Below are positions 25,826 to 53,445 of a DNA stretch of 64,000 bases, one piece after another. The first letter of the stretch is position 1. Each line of letters opens with the position of its first letter. The position numbers and the translations under genes were made by a program. Source of the stretch: Thalassovita sp. (GTDB lineage Bacteria; Bacteroidota; Bacteroidia; Cytophagales; Flammeovirgaceae). Below the pieces are notes generated by a model. That model ran no database searches. It was given only the letters and a program-made list of their open reading frames with translations, and was not told the DNA's origin. The DNA is taken from assembly GCA_002729595.1 (NCBI GenBank), contig PBYL01000192.1:62001-126000 (forward strand), in the 5' to 3' direction.

Positions 25826-26181
25826 TTGTGTACTTTAAGTTATGCCTGTGATACGCCTTATTTTATAAAAGTCACCAGTGGAATTCAATAAATTTTTTGC
25901 TGTTTTTAAAGGCAATTCTTAGAGTAGAAATATCTCAAAAAATTTAGTCTTATCTAGTAATAAAGAAACAATTGGGTGTAGTTTTGACTAAGCCAAAATT
26001 TAGAACATTTATAAAAAAATTTTGTGAGGCAACCACTTCGTAACAATATGCATCTATAGGCAAAAAACCTTTTTAAATAAATAAGAGTATCTTTTAATTT
26101 AAGCTCATAAATAGTAGTAAATTAACTAAAACTTTAATTTTTCGGTGAAGGCACAATTGCTCTGAGCCCTAATTTTACTTT
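25826..26181. other. Divergent intergenic region, 356 bp
   Basis: AT-rich region between the leftward PepSY-like gene and the rightward DUF5686 gene. It must hold both promoters, but no clear -33/-7 pair was found. No coding sequence or repeat is apparent. Confidence 0.3.
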
Positions 26182-28833
26182 ATGAAATATTTATTTTTAC
26201 TCTCAATCCTAGTTTTTTCAGTCACACTTACAAATGCGCAGGGTATTAAAGGAAAGGTAACAGATTCCGAAGGTGCTCCACTTCCTTTCACCACCATTTA
26301 CATCAAGCAATTAGAAACTGGTACCAGCACTAATATGGAAGGTGAATATCAATTTAAGTTAAAACCGGGTACTTACGATGTGCTTTATCAATATTTGGGA
26401 TACGAAGCAGTACAGAAAAAAGTAGAGATTGCTAGCGACTTTCAAGTAATAGATGTGACTATGCAAACTCAGATAATCGAGCTTAAAGAAGTCCTCATAA
26501 AATCGAACAAAGAAGATCCTGCTTATGCTATTATGCGAAAGGCAATTGCGAAGAGTAAATTTCATACCTTGCAAGTTGATGCTTATAGTTGTAGGGTATA
26601 TGTAAAAGGTAGTGGCCGTTTAAAAGACTATCCTTTCTTTTTGAGAAAAGCAATAGAAGATGAAGGCATAGATACCACCACCACTTTTACTTCGGAATCT
26701 ATCAGTGAGGTTTCTTACGAAAGACCGAATACTGTTAAAGAAAAAGTGATTTCTGTGAGAAAAAATGGCGATGATAATTCTACCAGCCCGAACGGCTATA
26801 TTACTGGTAGTTTTTATGAGCCAAAAATAGTTTCTGCTATTTCACCACTTTCTCCAAGAGCTTTTGCATATTATAGGTTTGAATATGTTGGTACCTTTCG
26901 CGATAGAGATTACGACATAAATAAGATTAAAGTAATCCCCAGATCGAAGGGCGACGATGTTTTCGCAGGATATATTTTTATAGTAGATGATCTTTGGAGC
27001 ATACACAGCTTAAGCCTTAAAACTTATAAGCAAGGCATCCTTTTCCATATAGACCAAATTTATGGCCCGATTGAAGAAAAAGTTTGGTTACCACTTAGCC
27101 ACAAGTTTGATGTAACAGGAAAAATATTCGGTATCGAATTCGAATATAAATATCTGGCAACAGTGAGTGATTATGAAATTACCCTTAACCCAGATTTAGA
27201 AGATACCGAGATTGAAGTAATTGATGAGAAAACAGAAAAGGAACTTGTAGCAGCACTGGCAAAAGAAGAAGAGCTTTCTAAAAGAGTTGAAGAAGAACCA
27301 GATGTGGCTCTTAAAGAGCAGAAGAAATTTACCCGTAAAGAGCTAAAAAAAGTATTAAACGATTATGAGAAGCAGCTAGACGAAGCCGAGTCTAAAATGG
27401 ATACAATGAATGTAGAAATTGTATCTAATTACAGCATGACTATAGATTCGCTAGCTGGCAAAGATGAATCTTATTGGCAAGAAGTACGACCGGTTCCTCT
27501 AACAGAGATGGAAAAAAAGAGCTACGAGAAACTAGATAGCATAGCAGTAGCCGAAGAAACCGCTGCCAAAGATACCACCAGCACTGGCGATAAAAGGAAG
27601 TCTAAACGCAAAGGTAATTTCCATCCGGAAGATATATTACTTGGCACCACTTTTAAACTGAGCGATAAAACCAGGTTAGAATATAAATCACCTTTAACCA
27701 CAGTAAATTTTAACACCGTAGAAGGTTATGTTTTTGAAGTTCCACTAGAATTAAGAACCCGTTTCGAAAACTATAAGCGACTAAACTTTGAAGCTCGTGG
27801 AAGATATTCTTTTGCAAGAGAAAAAGTAAATGGAAAATTAACCGGTACCTATCAATATAAAAGAAAAGCTGAAGAAGGACAGCTTGTAATAGAAGGTGGA
27901 AGGTACATTAATCAGTTGAATGAAGAGCAACCTATCCATCCGATTATCAATGCTTTTTCAACTTTGCTATGGGAAAGGAATTACATGAAAATCTTTGAAA
28001 AAGATTATGTGAAAGCGACTCATTTCCAGAAAATAAAAGAAGGATTGGTTATTAAATATGGTGTTGAATGGGCAAGACGCTATCAGTTATTCAACAATAC
28101 TGATCATGTCTATTTTGATAAAGACAACAGAGTTTATACCCCTAATAATCCGCCAAATTTCGATTTATTAGATACGAGTTTCCCAGAGCATGAGGCATTT
28201 ATTTTCCATACAGATTTAGAATACTTGCCATTTCTCAAATATGTAATGCGCAATGGAAAACGCAGGCTAATTCCTAACTCATCACCTTTATTCAGGTTGA
28301 GTTATAGGAAAGGTATTAATGATGTTTTTGGTAGTGATGTTGATTACGATTTGCTCGAAGTAGGCTTTAAGCACCGTGTAAAAATTGGTGTTAGAGGTAG
28401 GTTAGATGTAAATGCTTTTGCTGGTAAGTTCTTGAACAACAATAGCCTCTCTTTTATAGACTTTAAGCATTTTCCAGGAAACCAAACAGTCTTACAAACT
28501 TCTGATCCGGTAAACAGCTATCGCCTGCTTGATTATTACTACTACAGTACGCAAGATCAATATGTAGGAAGTACCATGTTCTACCAGTTTAGAAAGTTTT
28601 TGCTTACTCAAATTTTCGAAGTGAGATTGGCGGGATTAAAAGAAAACATCTTATTCAATTATCTCAAAACAGATGCTTCGCCACATTATATGGAAGTGGG
28701 TTATAGCCTCGATAACATCTTTAGATTTTTTAGAGTAGAAGCTATTGCCTCTTTTGAAGATATGGAATATAAAGATTTTGGAATTCGAATTGGTATCTCA
28801 ACCAACATCGGAGAGTTATTCGATATTAATTGA
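26182..28833 (+). CDS. DUF5686 outer membrane protein with carboxypeptidase-like domain
   Basis: An 883-residue outer membrane protein. A signal peptide (cleavage near TNAQG) is followed by a carboxypeptidase regulatory-like beta sandwich (about 22-105, IKGKVTDSEGAPLPFTTIYI). Then comes DUF5686, which begins with AYAIMRKAIAKSKFH and runs to the C-terminal beta barrel. A charged coiled-coil-like insert (about 350-470) is rich in Lys and Glu. The chain ends with barrel strands. The family is widespread in Bacteroidota; its molecular function is not established. Monocistronic, followed by a terminator. Confidence 0.88.
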   Translation: MKYLFLLSILVFSVTLTNAQGIKGKVTDSEGAPLPFTTIYIKQLETGTSTNMEGEYQFKLKPGTYDVLYQYLGYEAVQKKVEIASDFQVIDVTMQTQIIELKEVLIKSNKEDPAYAIMRKAIAKSKFHTLQVDAYSCRVYVKGSGRLKDYPFFLRKAIEDEGIDTTTTFTSESISEVSYERPNTVKEKVISVRKNGDDNSTSPNGYITGSFYEPKIVSAISPLSPRAFAYYRFEYVGTFRDRDYDINKIKVIPRSKGDDVFAGYIFIVDDLWSIHSLSLKTYKQGILFHIDQIYGPIEEKVWLPLSHKFDVTGKIFGIEFEYKYLATVSDYEITLNPDLEDTEIEVIDEKTEKELVAALAKEEELSKRVEEEPDVALKEQKKFTRKELKKVLNDYEKQLDEAESKMDTMNVEIVSNYSMTIDSLAGKDESYWQEVRPVPLTEMEKKSYEKLDSIAVAEETAAKDTTSTGDKRKSKRKGNFHPEDILLGTTFKLSDKTRLEYKSPLTTVNFNTVEGYVFEVPLELRTRFENYKRLNFEARGRYSFAREKVNGKLTGTYQYKRKAEEGQLVIEGGRYINQLNEEQPIHPIINAFSTLLWERNYMKIFEKDYVKATHFQKIKEGLVIKYGVEWARRYQLFNNTDHVYFDKDNRVYTPNNPPNFDLLDTSFPEHEAFIFHTDLEYLPFLKYVMRNGKRRLIPNSSPLFRLSYRKGINDVFGSDVDYDLLEVGFKHRVKIGVRGRLDVNAFAGKFLNNNSLSFIDFKHFPGNQTVLQTSDPVNSYRLLDYYYYSTQDQYVGSTMFYQFRKFLLTQIFEVRLAGLKENILFNYLKTDASPHYMEVGYSLDNIFRFFRVEAIASFEDMEYKDFGIRIGISTNIGELFDIN

Positions 28834-36636: not shown

Positions 36637-37731
36637 CTATTCTCCGAAAGAGATGCCAACTCCTTTAGCAGTTTTTAATAAATAAGAATCTAGATCGACA
36701 AAATTGTAAGACTTAGTAGCCTCTAATAAAGATACCTGAGTAATCTGGTTATTTTTAAAAGCGACCATTTGTCCGAAGTCACCATTCAATACCATTTCAA
36801 AAGCTTTTACTCCATATTGTGTTGCTAAAACTCTATCGAAAGCAACAGGTGTTCCGCCTCTTTGCAAATGACCCAATACCATTTCTCTAATATCCGCTGT
36901 GCAACCAGAAGCTTTTAACTCTGCAGAAAGTGCATAAGCTACACCGCCTAATCTCAAATTCTCATACCCAACTTCGTCGCTTGCTTTTGCTACAATGGTT
37001 CCTTCTTTAGGCATGGCTCCTTCTGCAACAACTACTACAGCAAAACCTTTCCCACAGTTATATCTCTTCTCAATTCGCTCCTGCACTTTTTTAATATCAT
37101 ATGGAATTTCTGGTATCAAACACACCTCCGCACCAGAAGAAATAGCTGCATGTAAAGCAATCCATCCGGCACTTCTACCCATTACTTCTAAAATCATAAC
37201 TCGGTGGTGGCTTTCCGCAGTAGTAACCAGTTTATCTACCGCATCACTCGCTTCTTGTACCGCCGTTTGGAAGCCGAAAGTATAATCCGTAGCAGAAAGG
37301 TCATTATCTATTGTTTTGGGCACACCTATAATTGGCAAACCTTTTTCGAATAAAGCATGACTAATTCTTTGAGAACCATCACCCCCAATTGAAATTACTG
37401 CATCGAAACCCATTGTTTTGAGTTTCTTTATCATTTCATCTGACCTATCTACAGCAGTCCACGAACCATCTTTATCTTGTACCGGCCAGCTAAAAGGACC
37501 ACCTTTGGTAGTGGTTTTTAATATAGTTCCTCCTTTTACATGTATGCCCGCAGTTGCTTTGTTATCTAATGGAATTATTTCTTCAGGATAATTTAACACG
37601 CCATTGTAAGCTTCCATACTACCGAAAACTTGCCAGTCTTCTTCTTGCAATGCTCTTTTTACGATTCCCCTAATTACCGCATTCAATCCGGGACAATCTC
37701 CTCCACCTGTTAGTACTAATACTTTTTTCAT
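36637..37731 (-). CDS. pfkA: 6-phosphofructokinase (ATP-type signature)
   Basis: A 364-residue glycolytic enzyme that phosphorylates fructose 6-phosphate. It shows the nucleotide-binding GGGDCPGLNAVIRG at 9-22, GGDGS at 116-120 and the catalytic PKTIDND at 138-144, with Asp142 as base. Gly at the GGDGS position points to ATP as donor. The Lys in PKTIDND is the residue seen in the PPi- and mixed-substrate subgroups, so this belongs to the G/K subgroup and not the classical PfkA one. Length fits. A core metabolic gene in the same window as a plasmid-type origin. Confidence 0.93.
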   Translation of the reverse strand: MKKVLVLTGGGDCPGLNAVIRGIVKRALQEEDWQVFGSMEAYNGVLNYPEEIIPLDNKATAGIHVKGGTILKTTTKGGPFSWPVQDKDGSWTAVDRSDEMIKKLKTMGFDAVISIGGDGSQRISHALFEKGLPIIGVPKTIDNDLSATDYTFGFQTAVQEASDAVDKLVTTAESHHRVMILEVMGRSAGWIALHAAISSGAEVCLIPEIPYDIKKVQERIEKRYNCGKGFAVVVVAEGAMPKEGTIVAKASDEVGYENLRLGGVAYALSAELKASGCTADIREMVLGHLQRGGTPVAFDRVLATQYGVKAFEMVLNGDFGQMVAFKNNQITQVSLLEATKSYNFVDLDSYLLKTAKGVGISFGE

Positions 37732-40024: not shown

Positions 40025-42439
40025 ATGCAGGATCTCAACGATTTTCTAGAATTGGAGATTTATCCGGTTGTTTACAACAGGCTGGATGTACTTTTACCAG
40101 AATTCGATTTGCAGTTCAGGCAGAAGTATTGGCAAAGTGCCAAAAATAACCTGCTTAAAACCGATGGTACAGAAGGTAGTTCGGGTGCTTCAGTTTATAT
40201 CTACGAAAACAGACCGGGCATATTAAAAAGCTACAAAGCTTCTGCCCCAAGCAGAAATTTGGCTTCTTACATTTGTGAAAGAGATGCTAAAGAATGGATT
40301 GAAGCGGTGAAGTTTCTGGCAGAATTTGCAGGAGTAACAGTTCCTCCAAATTCTTATAACGAAACTCCAGAAAGAAGAGAGCAGGCTAAAACTCGCGCTA
40401 AAGCCAGAGATGTTTGGCAAGAATTAGAAAGCTTTTTTCATTACTTGTTACAACACGATGCGGCTGCTAAAGATCATCTCAAATACTTAAAAGAAGAAAG
40501 AGGATTTTCTGATGATGATATAGATTTTACTGGCTTCGGTTATTATCCCGGTAAAGAGAGATGTGATGCCTATCTGCAAAGAAAAGGATTCGAAAATACT
40601 GTAATTAACTCGGTGCTTTCGTCTTTTACTGCTGATGAACGTTACAATCTGGCGATTCCAACCGGAGACCAATTAGGAAGAACTTCTGGTTTTATACTTA
40701 GAAATATAGAACCAAATGATAAAGGAGATAGGTATAGATATACTACTGGTTTCGAAAAGTCTAAACAGCTTTTTAACCATACAAATACCAATCAAAAATT
40801 TGGAGAGCCACTCATTTTAGTTGAGGGGCAGATTGATTCGAAACTCATCGAAGCCAGAGAGATTGGTAGGGCTGCATCAATTAATGGAAGCGACTTGTCT
40901 AAGCATCAGGCAGATTCCATTATTCAAGCAAAAGAAAAAGATATCATTATCGCTTTTGATGGAGACTCAGCAGGAAAAACGGCTACTTACAAAGCTATTG
41001 AAAAACTGCTCTCCTACCCCGAGAGCGAACATTTAAATATTCTGGTTGCAGAATTACCAGAAGGGTTAAAAGACCCCAACGATTATATAAAAGCACAAGG
41101 AACAGCATCTTTCAAAAAAATTATTGATAATGCGAACCCTTTGCATATTTGGTTAAACCTGCACATTATCGATGAAATTGCAGGTAAAAATGCACAGTTT
41201 CTCAGTACCATTCAGCAAGAGAAATACATAGAGCAAGTTGCACATTATGCTGCTTTAATTAAAAATCAGCTAATTCGCGGTCGCTTCATAGATGTTTTCA
41301 TGAAAAGCCATGGAGAGCATTCTGATGTTTCTCGACTTACTATTGAAGAAGCTGCCGCAAAACTGAGATACAACCAACAGGTTGAAGATGAGACCAAAGC
41401 GCTACAACAAGTAACATTGGAAGCTGGCAGAAAGCTGAGAGATGGAAAGTTGACAGAGGCCAAAACTCATCTAGAAAAATACCTTTCTCAATATACCAGT
41501 GCAGAGATTAGAGAAAAGGTTAAGCCTTACAGCTTTGATGAATTTCTAGAAGAAACTGCAAAAGAACCAGACGATTTAAGAACCGGAATTGATTCTTTAG
41601 ATCAGATCATCAGAATACCACAATCTGCAATTACTTTGATTGCAGCAAGACCTTCGCACGGTAAAACCAGCTTAATGCTCAATATGTTTTATAACATGAT
41701 TAAGCTTTACCCGCATAAAGAATTTTTCTTCTTTACCTATGAGGAACCTGCAAAATACCTTATGCTTAAAATTCTCAATAGAATTCTTTTTGAGGAATTT
41801 AGATTTGAGGCAGGGCTAAATTATCTTAGAAAATACCAAGCAGGTAAAAAAGAATACAACCAAGATGTTGAAAATGCCAAGAGAAAACTGGGCGATTTAA
41901 TCAATACCAAAAGATTGAATATTTTCAGTTTTAACTTAAATGATATTGAACTTGCCGAAGCGGTAAAAGCACAATATGTAAAAGATAGAACAGGAGCGGT
42001 TTACATCGACTATATTCAAAAAATTCCGGTTAACCAATCGGTAAAAGGCTACGAAGTAATTAAGCAAATTTCAAACACCATACTTAATAAAATTGCTGTT
42101 CCATTGCAGATTCCGGTAATTCTAGGAGCACAGTTTAACAGAGAAGCACGTGCCAGCAGAATTGGAGATTTGCACGCAGATATGTTGAGAGAAGGTGGTG
42201 ATTTGGAGCAAGATGCAAACACCGTTTTAGGTTTGTTAAACTACAACTTTGTAGAAGACAAAGAAGATGAGTTTGGAGTTCCTTTCAAAAAAGGAGAAGT
42301 AGCTCAATTAGATATTAAATCTCTAAAATACAGAAACGGAACACCGGGTAAAATTGCACACTTGGAGCTTCATGGTAAATACCAATTAGTTAATTCGCTA
42401 GAAAAGGTTTCTGCGCTCAATTATTTAAGAAGCGACTGA
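40025..42439 (+). CDS. Primase-helicase fusion (Toprim primase plus DnaB-like helicase)
   Basis: An 804-residue protein with the domain order of phage T7 gp4 and Twinkle. Residues 1-110 resemble a DnaG zinc-ribbon region but lack the cysteines, so zinc binding is unlikely. Residues 140-200 resemble the DnaG core (FHYLLQHDAAAKDHLKYLKE). A Toprim domain has Glu267 in LVEGQIDS and DGD at 312-314. After a linker comes a RecA-like DnaB C-terminal helicase with Walker A ARPSHGKTS (Lys547), Walker B VYIDYIQ and a QFNREAR...GDLEQDA end. It would unwind and prime DNA at a fork. It stands alone, about 7 kb from the iteron origin. Catalytic primase activity is uncertain. Confidence 0.88.
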   Translation: MQDLNDFLELEIYPVVYNRLDVLLPEFDLQFRQKYWQSAKNNLLKTDGTEGSSGASVYIYENRPGILKSYKASAPSRNLASYICERDAKEWIEAVKFLAEFAGVTVPPNSYNETPERREQAKTRAKARDVWQELESFFHYLLQHDAAAKDHLKYLKEERGFSDDDIDFTGFGYYPGKERCDAYLQRKGFENTVINSVLSSFTADERYNLAIPTGDQLGRTSGFILRNIEPNDKGDRYRYTTGFEKSKQLFNHTNTNQKFGEPLILVEGQIDSKLIEAREIGRAASINGSDLSKHQADSIIQAKEKDIIIAFDGDSAGKTATYKAIEKLLSYPESEHLNILVAELPEGLKDPNDYIKAQGTASFKKIIDNANPLHIWLNLHIIDEIAGKNAQFLSTIQQEKYIEQVAHYAALIKNQLIRGRFIDVFMKSHGEHSDVSRLTIEEAAAKLRYNQQVEDETKALQQVTLEAGRKLRDGKLTEAKTHLEKYLSQYTSAEIREKVKPYSFDEFLEETAKEPDDLRTGIDSLDQIIRIPQSAITLIAARPSHGKTSLMLNMFYNMIKLYPHKEFFFFTYEEPAKYLMLKILNRILFEEFRFEAGLNYLRKYQAGKKEYNQDVENAKRKLGDLINTKRLNIFSFNLNDIELAEAVKAQYVKDRTGAVYIDYIQKIPVNQSVKGYEVIKQISNTILNKIAVPLQIPVILGAQFNREARASRIGDLHADMLREGGDLEQDANTVLGLLNYNFVEDKEDEFGVPFKKGEVAQLDIKSLKYRNGTPGKIAHLELHGKYQLVNSLEKVSALNYLRSD

Positions 42440-49515: not shown

Positions 49516-49550
49516 AATTCGGATAAACAAAAAAAATGTTTTTCCGAATT
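49516..49550. repeat. Inverted repeat at the left edge of the origin region
   Basis: AATTCGGATAAACA pairs with TGTTTTTCCGAATT (13 of 14) around seven A residues. It sits about 95 bp before the first iteron. Confidence 0.7.
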
Positions 49551-49611
49551 ATTAATTATATAGATTCTATTATCTATATATATTATATAAAAGAAAATTT
49601 GATCATAAATA

Positions 49612-49852
49612 TCTGTAAATCAGATATATACAACCGACTCTAACTTCACAACTACACCCCTTATTAGTCATAACTACATACTATTTTAGTCACAATTACT
49701 ACTAATTCTAGTCGTAACTAATCCCCTTTTTATTCATAAGTACACCTATCGCTAGTCAAAACTACACCCATTCAAATATTGATATACAGTATTGAGTCTT
49801 CATTATATGCGATTTTAAGAGAGTTGAATATATAACCTTCTGTAAATCAGAT
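49612..49852. repeat. Duplicated TCTGTAAATCAGAT flanking the first iteron block
   Basis: The 14-bp sequence occurs at 49612-49625 and 49839-49852. Each copy is itself palindromic at its ends (TCTG...CAGA). The two copies bracket the six left-most iterons (49643-49769). Confidence 0.75.
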
Positions 49853-50368
49853 TGATACATTAAATTTTGAATAATTCAATAGTTTAGTCACAAGTACACC
49901 CTTTGTAGTCAGAAGTCATAATGACTATGTTTTTTATTAATAGTCATAAGTACACCCATTATAGTTATATGTTAGATTTTCTTGTTTTCAAACTTTAGTC
50001 ATAAGTACACCCTTTATACTGAAACTACTAATTTTAACTTGCAAAAGCTTTAGTCATAACTACATCCCTTTTCATTCATATTAATTTGTTAGGTTCAGTT
50101 TCTTATCTTAAAAAGTGTGTCTGGAGGACTTAGAGCTAGTTTTAGTCATAAGTACACCCTATTGTAGTCATATTGATTTAAACCTACACAGTCATAAGTA
50201 CACCCTTTAGCATATTTTTTCTAAATTTTTTAAAAAATTTGCATAGTCATAAGTACACCCAATAATAGTCAATACTATATCCATATTTAGTCGTAAGTAC
50301 ACCCTTTAATAGTCACAACTACACCTAATAGCAGTCAAAATGAATATATTTTAGTCACAAGTACACCC
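49643..50368 (+). repeat. Array of about 16 iterons, 17 bp each, all one orientation
   Basis: The consensus is TAGTCATAAGTACACCC. Exact copies start at 49941, 49996, 50143 and 50244. One-mismatch copies start at 49885, 50189, 50288 and 50352. Two- to five-mismatch copies start at 49643, 49665, 49687, 49709, 49731, 49753, 50051, 50266 and 50310, with weaker traces at 49906, 50073, 50165, 50332 and 50371. The first six starts are exactly 22 bp apart, as are 50244-50266-50288-50310-50332, and several other gaps are 55 bp (2.5 periods). All copies are on the + strand, upstream of the Rep gene. Confidence 0.95.
49914..49926. repeat. Inverted half-iteron
   Basis: AGTCAT-A-ATGACT, the iteron head facing its own complement, is the only head-to-head arrangement found in the array. 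Inverted half-iterons often serve as Rep dimer sites; here it lies about 540 bp from the HTH gene. Confidence 0.55.
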
Positions 50369-51663: not shown

Positions 51664-51690
51664 GCAGGATTGATTCTCCTGCCTTTTTTT
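51664..51690 (+). terminator. Terminator of the rep transcript
   Basis: GCAGGA pairs with TCCTGC around a 7-nt loop and is followed by C and seven T residues. Confidence 0.9.
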
Positions 51691-52233: not shown

Positions 52234-52983
52234 ATGGAAATCATTGCTATATCAAATCAGAAAGGAGGAGTAGGTAAAACTACATCGGTGAGTGCTATCA
52301 GTGAAATACTATCGAAGTCAGGAAAAAAAGTAGTAATGATAGATCTTGATCCACAAGCAAACTTATCTAAAGGTCTTGGCATAGAAAAACCAGAATATAC
52401 GATTCAAGGTGTTTTGTTTGATGAGTATGGAATCGAAGAAGCAGTTGAAGCAATAAATGACAATTTGTTACTAATACCTTGTACTAAAGCACTTGCCAAT
52501 TTCGAAATTGAAATGCTCAATGAAATTGGGAGAGAGTATATTCTTAAAAACAAAATAAAAGCATTAGAAGGGCAGTGCGATTATGTTATTTTAGATAGTC
52601 CTCCAAGTTTGGGCTTACTTACGATTAATGCACTTTCGGCAGCAGAGTCTGTGTATGTTCCAATACATGCTCAAAAATATAGTCTAGATGGTCTTCACGA
52701 AGTGCTTGAGACAATCGATAAAGTAAAAGAATTTATAAACCCTGGGTTAAAGTTTAAAGGAGCATATTTTAATCAATACGATCAGCGTAAGCTTTTGACT
52801 AGAGCATTAACAGAAGAGGTAAAAGAAATGGTAGGAGAGGAGATGCTATTAAATACATTTATAAGAGTAAATGTGGCTTTGCAAGAAGCTCCAACTTTAG
52901 GCAAAAGTATATTAGAATACGCACCAGAAAGTAATGGCGCAGTTGACTTTAAAAATCTTACAGATGAAATAATTAGTAGATAA
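52234..52983 (+). CDS. parA: ParA-family partition ATPase (type Ib-like)
   Basis: A 249-residue ATPase that should drive segregation of the replicon on the nucleoid. It starts directly with the deviant Walker motif QKGGVGKTT (residues 9-17), followed by LDPQANLSKGLG and VILDSPPSLG. There is no N-terminal HTH domain, so it belongs to the small type Ib group, where the partner protein and not ParA represses the operon. It is followed 42 bp downstream by the small RHH-like gene. Palindromes upstream fit a type Ib centromere. Similarity to chromosomal Soj proteins is lower in context, since no parB of the large type is present. Confidence 0.92.
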   Translation: MEIIAISNQKGGVGKTTSVSAISEILSKSGKKVVMIDLDPQANLSKGLGIEKPEYTIQGVLFDEYGIEEAVEAINDNLLLIPCTKALANFEIEMLNEIGREYILKNKIKALEGQCDYVILDSPPSLGLLTINALSAAESVYVPIHAQKYSLDGLHEVLETIDKVKEFINPGLKFKGAYFNQYDQRKLLTRALTEEVKEMVGEEMLLNTFIRVNVALQEAPTLGKSILEYAPESNGAVDFKNLTDEIISR

Positions 52984-53025: not shown

Positions 53026-53445
53026 ATGGAGAAAAAAACCACAGATTTATTCAGAAAAGCAAATACAAGAAGGTCGGAACGCCATCCGCTTGATAACTTT
53101 AAGAAGGACAATAACGAGGAGCAGGAAGAACAAGAAGAAGCAGTAGTCAATACTCCAGTAAGAGAAACGCCAAAAATGAGAGAGCCAGAACCTGAGGTTG
53201 AAGATAAACCAGTAAGGCAGTCATTTTTGCTTGATTACGAAGTGATGGAGAAGATTAAAGATATTGTGTATTATGAGCGCAGAAATGGTAATTTTGAATA
53301 TAGTCAGAAAGATGCGATATCTGATGGAATTAAAGCCTTAATAGATTCAAAAGGTGATGTACCTCAAAGACCAGAAGCAGAAAGAGCGAAAGAAAAACAC
53401 AGAAGCGATAGAATTAAAAAGGCAAAGCGGAAATCTAGATTTTAA
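53026..53445 (+). CDS. Small RHH-like centromere-binding partner of ParA
   Basis: A 139-residue highly charged protein. The N-terminal basic segment (FRKANTRRSERHPLDNF) could contact and stimulate ParA. An acidic linker follows, then residues 63-107 with a ribbon-helix-helix pattern: strand VRQSFLLD, helix YEVMEKIKDIVYYERR, helix SQKDAISDGIKALID. A basic tail (KKAKRKSRF) ends the chain. The position directly after parA is that of the type Ib ParB/ParG-like protein. No sequence family was confirmed; the fold is inferred. Confidence 0.65.
   Translation: MEKKTTDLFRKANTRRSERHPLDNFKKDNNEEQEEQEEAVVNTPVRETPKMREPEPEVEDKPVRQSFLLDYEVMEKIKDIVYYERRNGNFEYSQKDAISDGIKALIDSKGDVPQRPEAERAKEKHRSDRIKKAKRKSRF

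Follow-up and report, generated by a model that had tools for sequence, protein, structure and literature searches.

The window (the whole stretch of 64,000 nucleotides analysed here) very probably contains the origin of an iteron-controlled replicon, as one of a set of ten or more in this genome, which have a core in common and whose initiators have diverged together with private iterons. The array of iterons, the fold of the initiator, the set of paralogues, the shared core, the geometry and the covariation between initiator and iteron are computed results (features in Table 1). A plasmid-type iteron origin had already been proposed in an earlier sequence-only reading of this DNA, and the proposal is supported by the fold, by arrays upstream of the paralogous genes, by the joint divergence of arrays and initiators, by the core and by the nearby ParA gene.

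Table 1. Features of the putative origin region and its surroundings, in window coordinates.
Feature	Position	Strand	Remarks
Isolated iteron	25974..25990	-	Same sequence as the copy at 49753; lies between divergent genes
Conserved AT-rich origin core	49535..49633	+	Ends 10 bp before the first iteron; nhmmer/cmsearch model
Palindromic AT-rich stretch of the core	49550..49592	+	Conserved compared with the sister species
IHF-like box AATCAGATATATA	49618..49630	+	1 mismatch to WATCARNNNNTTR; inference only
Regular iteron block	49643..49769	+	Six iterons at exact 22-bp steps; paralogues with the same geometry
Irregular iteron block	49885..50368	+	Eleven iterons, mostly better matches to the consensus
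Small Cro/C1-type HTH gene, 68 aa	50451..50657	+	Pfam HTH_26 just below the cut-off; upstream of rep
Replication initiator Rep, 329 aa, predicted tandem winged helix	50670..51659	+	AF2 model, Foldseek
Codons for residues 282, 283 and 286, start of the WH2 recognition helix	51513..51527	+	
Terminator-like stem-loop 3' of rep	51664..51682	+	
ParA partition ATPase	52234..52983	+	Pfam AAA_31, E=2.6e-54
Small gene adjoining parA	53026..53445	+	Homologues near parA in several paralogous loci

When up to 3 mismatches to TAGTCATAAGTACACCC are allowed, the window contains 15 matches, of which 13 are found within 49665-50368, all of them on the + strand; in shuffled sequence the mean is 0.15 and the maximum 2. 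Scanning with a weight matrix at a cut-off of at least 8 bits identifies 17 same-strand (+) iterons with starts from 49643 to 50352. The sequence-only reading had counted about 16 + strand copies with the first six at 22-bp steps, and the matrix returns the same six (49643, 49665, 49687, 49709, 49731 and 49753). The irregular copies start at 49885, 49941, 49996, 50051, 50143, 50189, 50244, 50266, 50288, 50310 and 50352. The earlier reading put their steps at 22 or 55 bp; the matrix gives a second 22-bp run (50244-50310) and four steps of 55/56 bp, and the remaining steps are 132, 92, 46 and 42 bp. Degenerate traces had also been suggested at 50073 and 50165. These are weak, with about 5.7% and 1.7% of window positions, respectively, scoring equally well, and the trace at 50165 retains TAGTCATA. 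The idea that the region is a partly decayed 22-bp tandem array is unsupported: in 11 of 12 arrays it is the irregular copies, and not those of the regular block, that come closer to their consensus (Wilcoxon p=0.0015). The window array is bipartite and not decayed, a regular origin block being followed by a second one that is irregular and scores higher. Occurrence of the consensus at many unrelated genomic sites would have refuted an iteron origin. This was checked genome-wide, and the consensus hardly occurs outside the window array: contig C24 has a related dialect, and there are a few scattered matches. One isolated iteron, a near-exact copy, lies 23.7 kb from the array, which recalls the distal sites that titrate RctB; the homologous region of the sister species is without it.

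The core directly upstream of the iterons is common to nearly all of these loci. A profile of about 100 bp was built from 17 cores and then searched in the remaining loci, where it gave no match in a reversed-sequence control. The core is present in all but one of the short-type array-bearing loci at E≤1e-3 and on the strand of rep (the match in Fd_C28 is weak), and in G000, G001, G011 and G012 each initiator locus has a single one. The first iteron follows at a fixed distance of about 10 bp past the end of the core, once differences in the end of the model match are allowed for; a few loci have a first copy that is weak or was missed by the finder, and in the window the first copy is that at 49643. 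The plan shared by the loci consists of a core with an IHF-like box at its end, in most cases four to six iterons with a step of 21-22 bp, and then irregular iterons. In Fd_C29 and G012_C252 most iterons are on the far side of the core. In a subfamily of long Reps (390-440 aa; L076, L092, L093, L100, L080) the array lies downstream of or beyond rep and is inverted relative to the gene, and so does the core, where found.

The AT-richest 60 bp in the window begins 90 bp before the first iteron, and in 17 of 23 arrays it is located 60-160 bp before it. An AT-rich region therefore adjoins the iterons, as an iteron-controlled replicon requires, judged by AT-richness and position only. The palindromic stretch within the core is probably the DNA unwinding element, but melting was not measured. 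Exact WATCARNNNNTTR occurs in 11 of 26 cores compared to 1.9% of shuffles; the cores are homologous, so these are not independent observations. DnaA boxes (TTWTNCACA) are absent upstream of the window rep and scattered elsewhere.

The initiator gene is not recognised by profile searches. Rep has no match in Pfam or NCBIfam and no useful match in PHROGs, and specifically none to Pfam Rep_3 (PF01051/PF21205; Rep3_N/Rep3_C) at E≤0.01. When four relatives were scanned at E≤1 there was again no Rep3 match, while true Rep_3 proteins of a Persicobacter plasmid scored strongly alongside. Searching PDB sequences with Rep alone or with its profile returned nothing meaningful. An AlphaFold (AF2) model built from an alignment of 32 relatives (mean pLDDT 88.4, pTM 0.89) was compared with the PDB by Foldseek, and here the top list consists almost wholly of mini-F RepE54, together with domains 2-3 of RctB (5tbf); many of the matched RepE54 structures are bound to iteron DNA. 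The matches have an E of about 1e-3 and an identity of about 12%, with a TM score (target) of about 0.6 for RepE. According to the model, Rep is folded as two winged helices in tandem, like other iteron-binding initiators, and from the matches to RepE54 and RctB it would work like an initiator of that type. Rep represents a new, sequence-divergent family of initiators outside the Pfam Rep_3 profile and restricted to a few Cytophagales. The assembly from which the window comes (7.99 Mb in 487 contigs, 77.7% complete) has Rep matches on twelve contigs, some of them fragments; there are 7 matches in the sister species, 13 in the isolate Flexithrix dorotheae DSM 6795 and 7 in another relative. No match was found in other genomes of the family or in a 390-genome sample of the order, a phylum-wide search added a single distant match, and viral contigs searched with the Rep profile gave none.

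Arrays are found upstream of 29 complete short-type Reps and of the truncated own_C106 gene, and nearly every complete paralogue of this main type has an array directly upstream. Their scores are 31-124 compared to 10-19 in shuffles, with up to 23 copies per array. Eight short-type arrays, the own_C365/own_C69 array and the own_C388 array give at least ten distinct origins in the genome of the window, and the same way of counting gives twelve in Flexithrix dorotheae. The genes on own_C106 and own_C243 are probably two halves of one gene, since they match one and the same Flexithrix Rep, with 85-92% identity each. A further Rep fragment (L077:7392-7793; G000:C76) lies inside a contig that has no array and is probably a pseudogene; from its residues, an iteron of AGCC type would be expected. 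All four genomes are drafts, so a separate molecule for each origin has not been shown. The window rep is 93% identical in the sister species, which retains the same iteron dialect. The 155-kb contig of the window and the Flexithrix contig with the orthologous rep share, at the set threshold, only rep and three genes, and no conserved chromid is shown between them. SSU rRNA, which might have revealed an rrn operon on such a replicon, was sought in the four genomes without a match in any.

ParA homologues are found near most of the initiators, and the product of the small gene adjoining parA is possibly the centromere-binding partner of ParA, a function that is inferred. The small HTH protein encoded upstream of rep is a possible copy-control repressor; tblastn finds homologues near rep in several other loci, and many array-bearing loci are without one. 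Further away, 8 kb from the origin, a gene at 40025-42439 encodes a fused primase (Toprim)/DnaB-type helicase, and on Flexithrix contig C6 a 64% identical homologue of this fusion adjoins a long Rep. The contig also carries a 6-phosphofructokinase gene (36637-37731), for which no further family match was found in the same, incomplete genome. In the sister species the orthologue of this gene is on one contig with a homologue of the window gene at 26182.

When the iterons of all loci are placed in register, there is hardly any variation at bases 3 and 5-11 (GNCAWAAGT), and bases 1, 2, 4 and 12-17 vary between replicons. Within a genome, the matrices do not recognise each other's arrays, except for one partial case (G001_C529 on G001_C240, 0.18), whereas orthologous arrays of different species are recognised by each other's matrices at 0.40-1.00. 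The distance between Reps correlates with the distance between their iterons (Mantel r=0.68, p=2e-4), also when pairs with more than 70% identity are left out (r=0.51). As far as can be judged from such comparisons, arrays and initiators diverge together: the core is common to all origins, the iteron sequence appears private to each, and cross-recognition is nearly absent in silico. This orthogonality was assessed using sequence matrices only.

Part of the divergence can be assigned to single residues. The covariation set consisted of 20 Rep clusters at 80% identity, one of which has a gap at residue 283, and the tree used in the tests was built without the tested columns. In the Rep model, residue 283 closely precedes the WH2 recognition helix (285-300), and it follows base 4 of the iteron: Asn goes with T in 12 of 13 cases, His with C in all 5, and Gln with A in 1. 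On the tree, all four independent Asn/His pairs agree with base 4, and the five changes of residue 283 all fall on branches where base 4 changes, making this the top-ranked of 5100 residue-base pairs. The tree-aware p of 5e-5 is uncorrected, and it fails a strict correction for 5100 pairs unless the recognition helix is used as a structural prior. Asn-A (opposite T4), His-G (opposite C4), Gln-A and Arg-G are pairings usual for DNA-binding proteins. The rule was then applied to two held-out long Reps, Fd_C20 and own_C365. Both carry Gln283, and their array, put in register by core geometry, shows the expected A4 and C5; its base 2 is mixed T/C. Two other long Reps, own_C388 and G001_C137, have Arg283 with G4, in a register that rests on the CAnAA core alone.

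The fit is looser at the two neighbouring positions. Arg286 goes with C5 and His286 once with A5; Asn, Lys or Ser at 282 goes mostly with A2, and Arg or Gly with C2. There are also exceptions. Fd_C28 has Asn283 yet A4 (its base 3 differs too), and two orthologues are without residues 281-284. The weaker 282 rule is broken by G012_C325 (Lys282, C2) and Fd_C20 (Arg282, T/C2), and in Fd_C6, own_C388 and G001_C137 Arg286 is missing although C5 is apparently kept. Two other signals were rejected: covariation at base 9 (residues 9 and 82) comes from a single clade, and residue 136, conspicuous against the 3' half in the distance test, shows no co-change with base 13 on the tree. Residues 282, 283 and 286 are candidate readers of bases 2, 4 and 5, for which no binding data exist. 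No matching account was found in the iteron-recognition literature, as far as open-licence papers are concerned.

In the mechanism proposed here, binding, melting, the role of IHF, titration and compatibility are inferred. Monomers of Rep would bind the 17-bp iterons via their two winged-helix domains. Once the regular 22-bp block is filled and a DNA-bending protein sits at the IHF-like box, the AT-rich core would melt and replication would start. The irregular, better-matching copies nearer the gene may titrate Rep or pair with it and thereby limit copy number, a role modelled on the inc/control iterons of P1, F and Vibrio ori2; for IHF, too, resemblance to known origins is the only support. 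Initiators that have diverged with their own iterons would not need to cross-talk, and part of the specificity may be read by residues 282, 283 and 286, with Asn283 for T4, His for C4, Gln for A4 and Arg for G4. Whether this code at 283, together with changes at 282 and 286 and in what WH1 reads, has let one family on one core split into about 20 mutually orthogonal replicon types, at least ten of them coexisting per cell, is a question on which the chances appear about even.

The array could also be nothing more than an autoregulatory operator of the rep operon, with the true origin elsewhere. Rep proteins often act as repressors of their own genes, and the iterons do separate the core from the rep operon. 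However, a shared AT-rich core that keeps a constant distance to the first iteron is the layout of an origin and not of an operator, and the largest arrays exceed what an operator needs. In the two loci mentioned above the copies are mostly beyond the core, and in the long-Rep loci core and array are downstream of rep and inverted; an operator alone is for these reasons improbable. A further protein that might read the iterons is the small HTH protein instead of Rep, given that its gene lies between the array and rep and has relatives close to rep at other loci. This is scarcely credible when many loci have an array and no such gene, and when the sequence of the iterons varies with the distance between Reps and with residues of Rep.

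It is also conceivable that the locus is the decaying, disused relic of an integrated plasmid. The spacing is irregular, ordinary metabolic genes are found on the same contig, and the assembly is a draft. Against this, the Rep and HTH genes are intact, the closely similar rep of the sister species keeps the same dialect, and the irregular copies match the consensus better, not worse, so that a relic is quite improbable. A functional origin of an iteron-controlled replicon remains the preferred reading.

The coexistence of related replicons is an old question in the evolution of plasmids and multipartite genomes. The puzzle is that initiator and repeats must change together while function persists throughout, and sister origins with private iterons suggest a way in which related replicons in one cell may avoid interference. 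With about 20 diverged initiator-iteron pairs on one core, often with orthologues in at least two species, such change becomes readable and open to testing with point mutants. Should the residue-base rule be true, iteron specificity would be predictable from the protein sequence. There is also a practical side: Pfam and NCBIfam miss the Rep family, which makes it invisible to current plasmid typing, and multi-replicon genomes of this clade are therefore probably under-called.

An iteron replicon on the ori2/P1 plan is of an already known kind. The divergent family of initiators is new, and what stands out is the number of dialects that coexist on one core and a testable residue-base rule. In Vibrio cholerae ori2, head-to-tail 12-mer iterons 10-11 bp apart are combined with an AT-rich region and an IHF site, and there is a separate inc region with further iterons, as well as titrating iterons tens of kb away (PMC6090056). 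The loci described here resemble the ori2/RctB system in the tandem winged-helix initiator predicted for them, the regular iterons, the AT-rich region, the IHF-like box and the further block of iterons. The two-block layout of ori2 is present, while the division of the blocks into origin and control is inferred by analogy. They differ in having 17-bp iterons, in the lack of a DnaA-box match in the window origin, in that no 39-mer class was recognised (a second class of sites was not searched for systematically), and in having about ten paralogous origins per cell, each with private iterons. The 39-mers of ori2 are inhibitory sites, and its once-per-cycle timing is set by crtS. Iteron plasmids such as P1, F and R6K (Rep_3, e.g. 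RepE) are similar in the fold, in direct repeats of 17-22 bp by rep and in a nearby ParA. Unlike these, the family does not match Pfam Rep3_N/Rep3_C and has many coexisting dialects on one core.

The rrn plasmids of Persicobacteraceae (pPPrrn, JZB09-Plasmid16) carry a divergent homologue of the window Rep that is annotated as hypothetical. Their replication has been assigned to annotated initiators (PMC10645730), and these are Pfam Rep_3 proteins, unlike the window Rep. In NZ_AP025304.1 (3659-4936; L108) and CP012859.1 (L109:4554-5864) the homologues of Rep lie beside Rep_3 genes and are 77% identical to each other; a published note describes the annotated repA of two Persicobacter species as being without similarity to each other. 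In the Rep_3 origins of Persicobacter plasmids (L108:6283-6314, L109:6135-6200), iterons of 21-22 bp are preceded, at about 10 bp, by a core tail like the one described here, GTAAC..TGATTATCA..GTTAC, and the core may therefore be read by a host factor and not by Rep.
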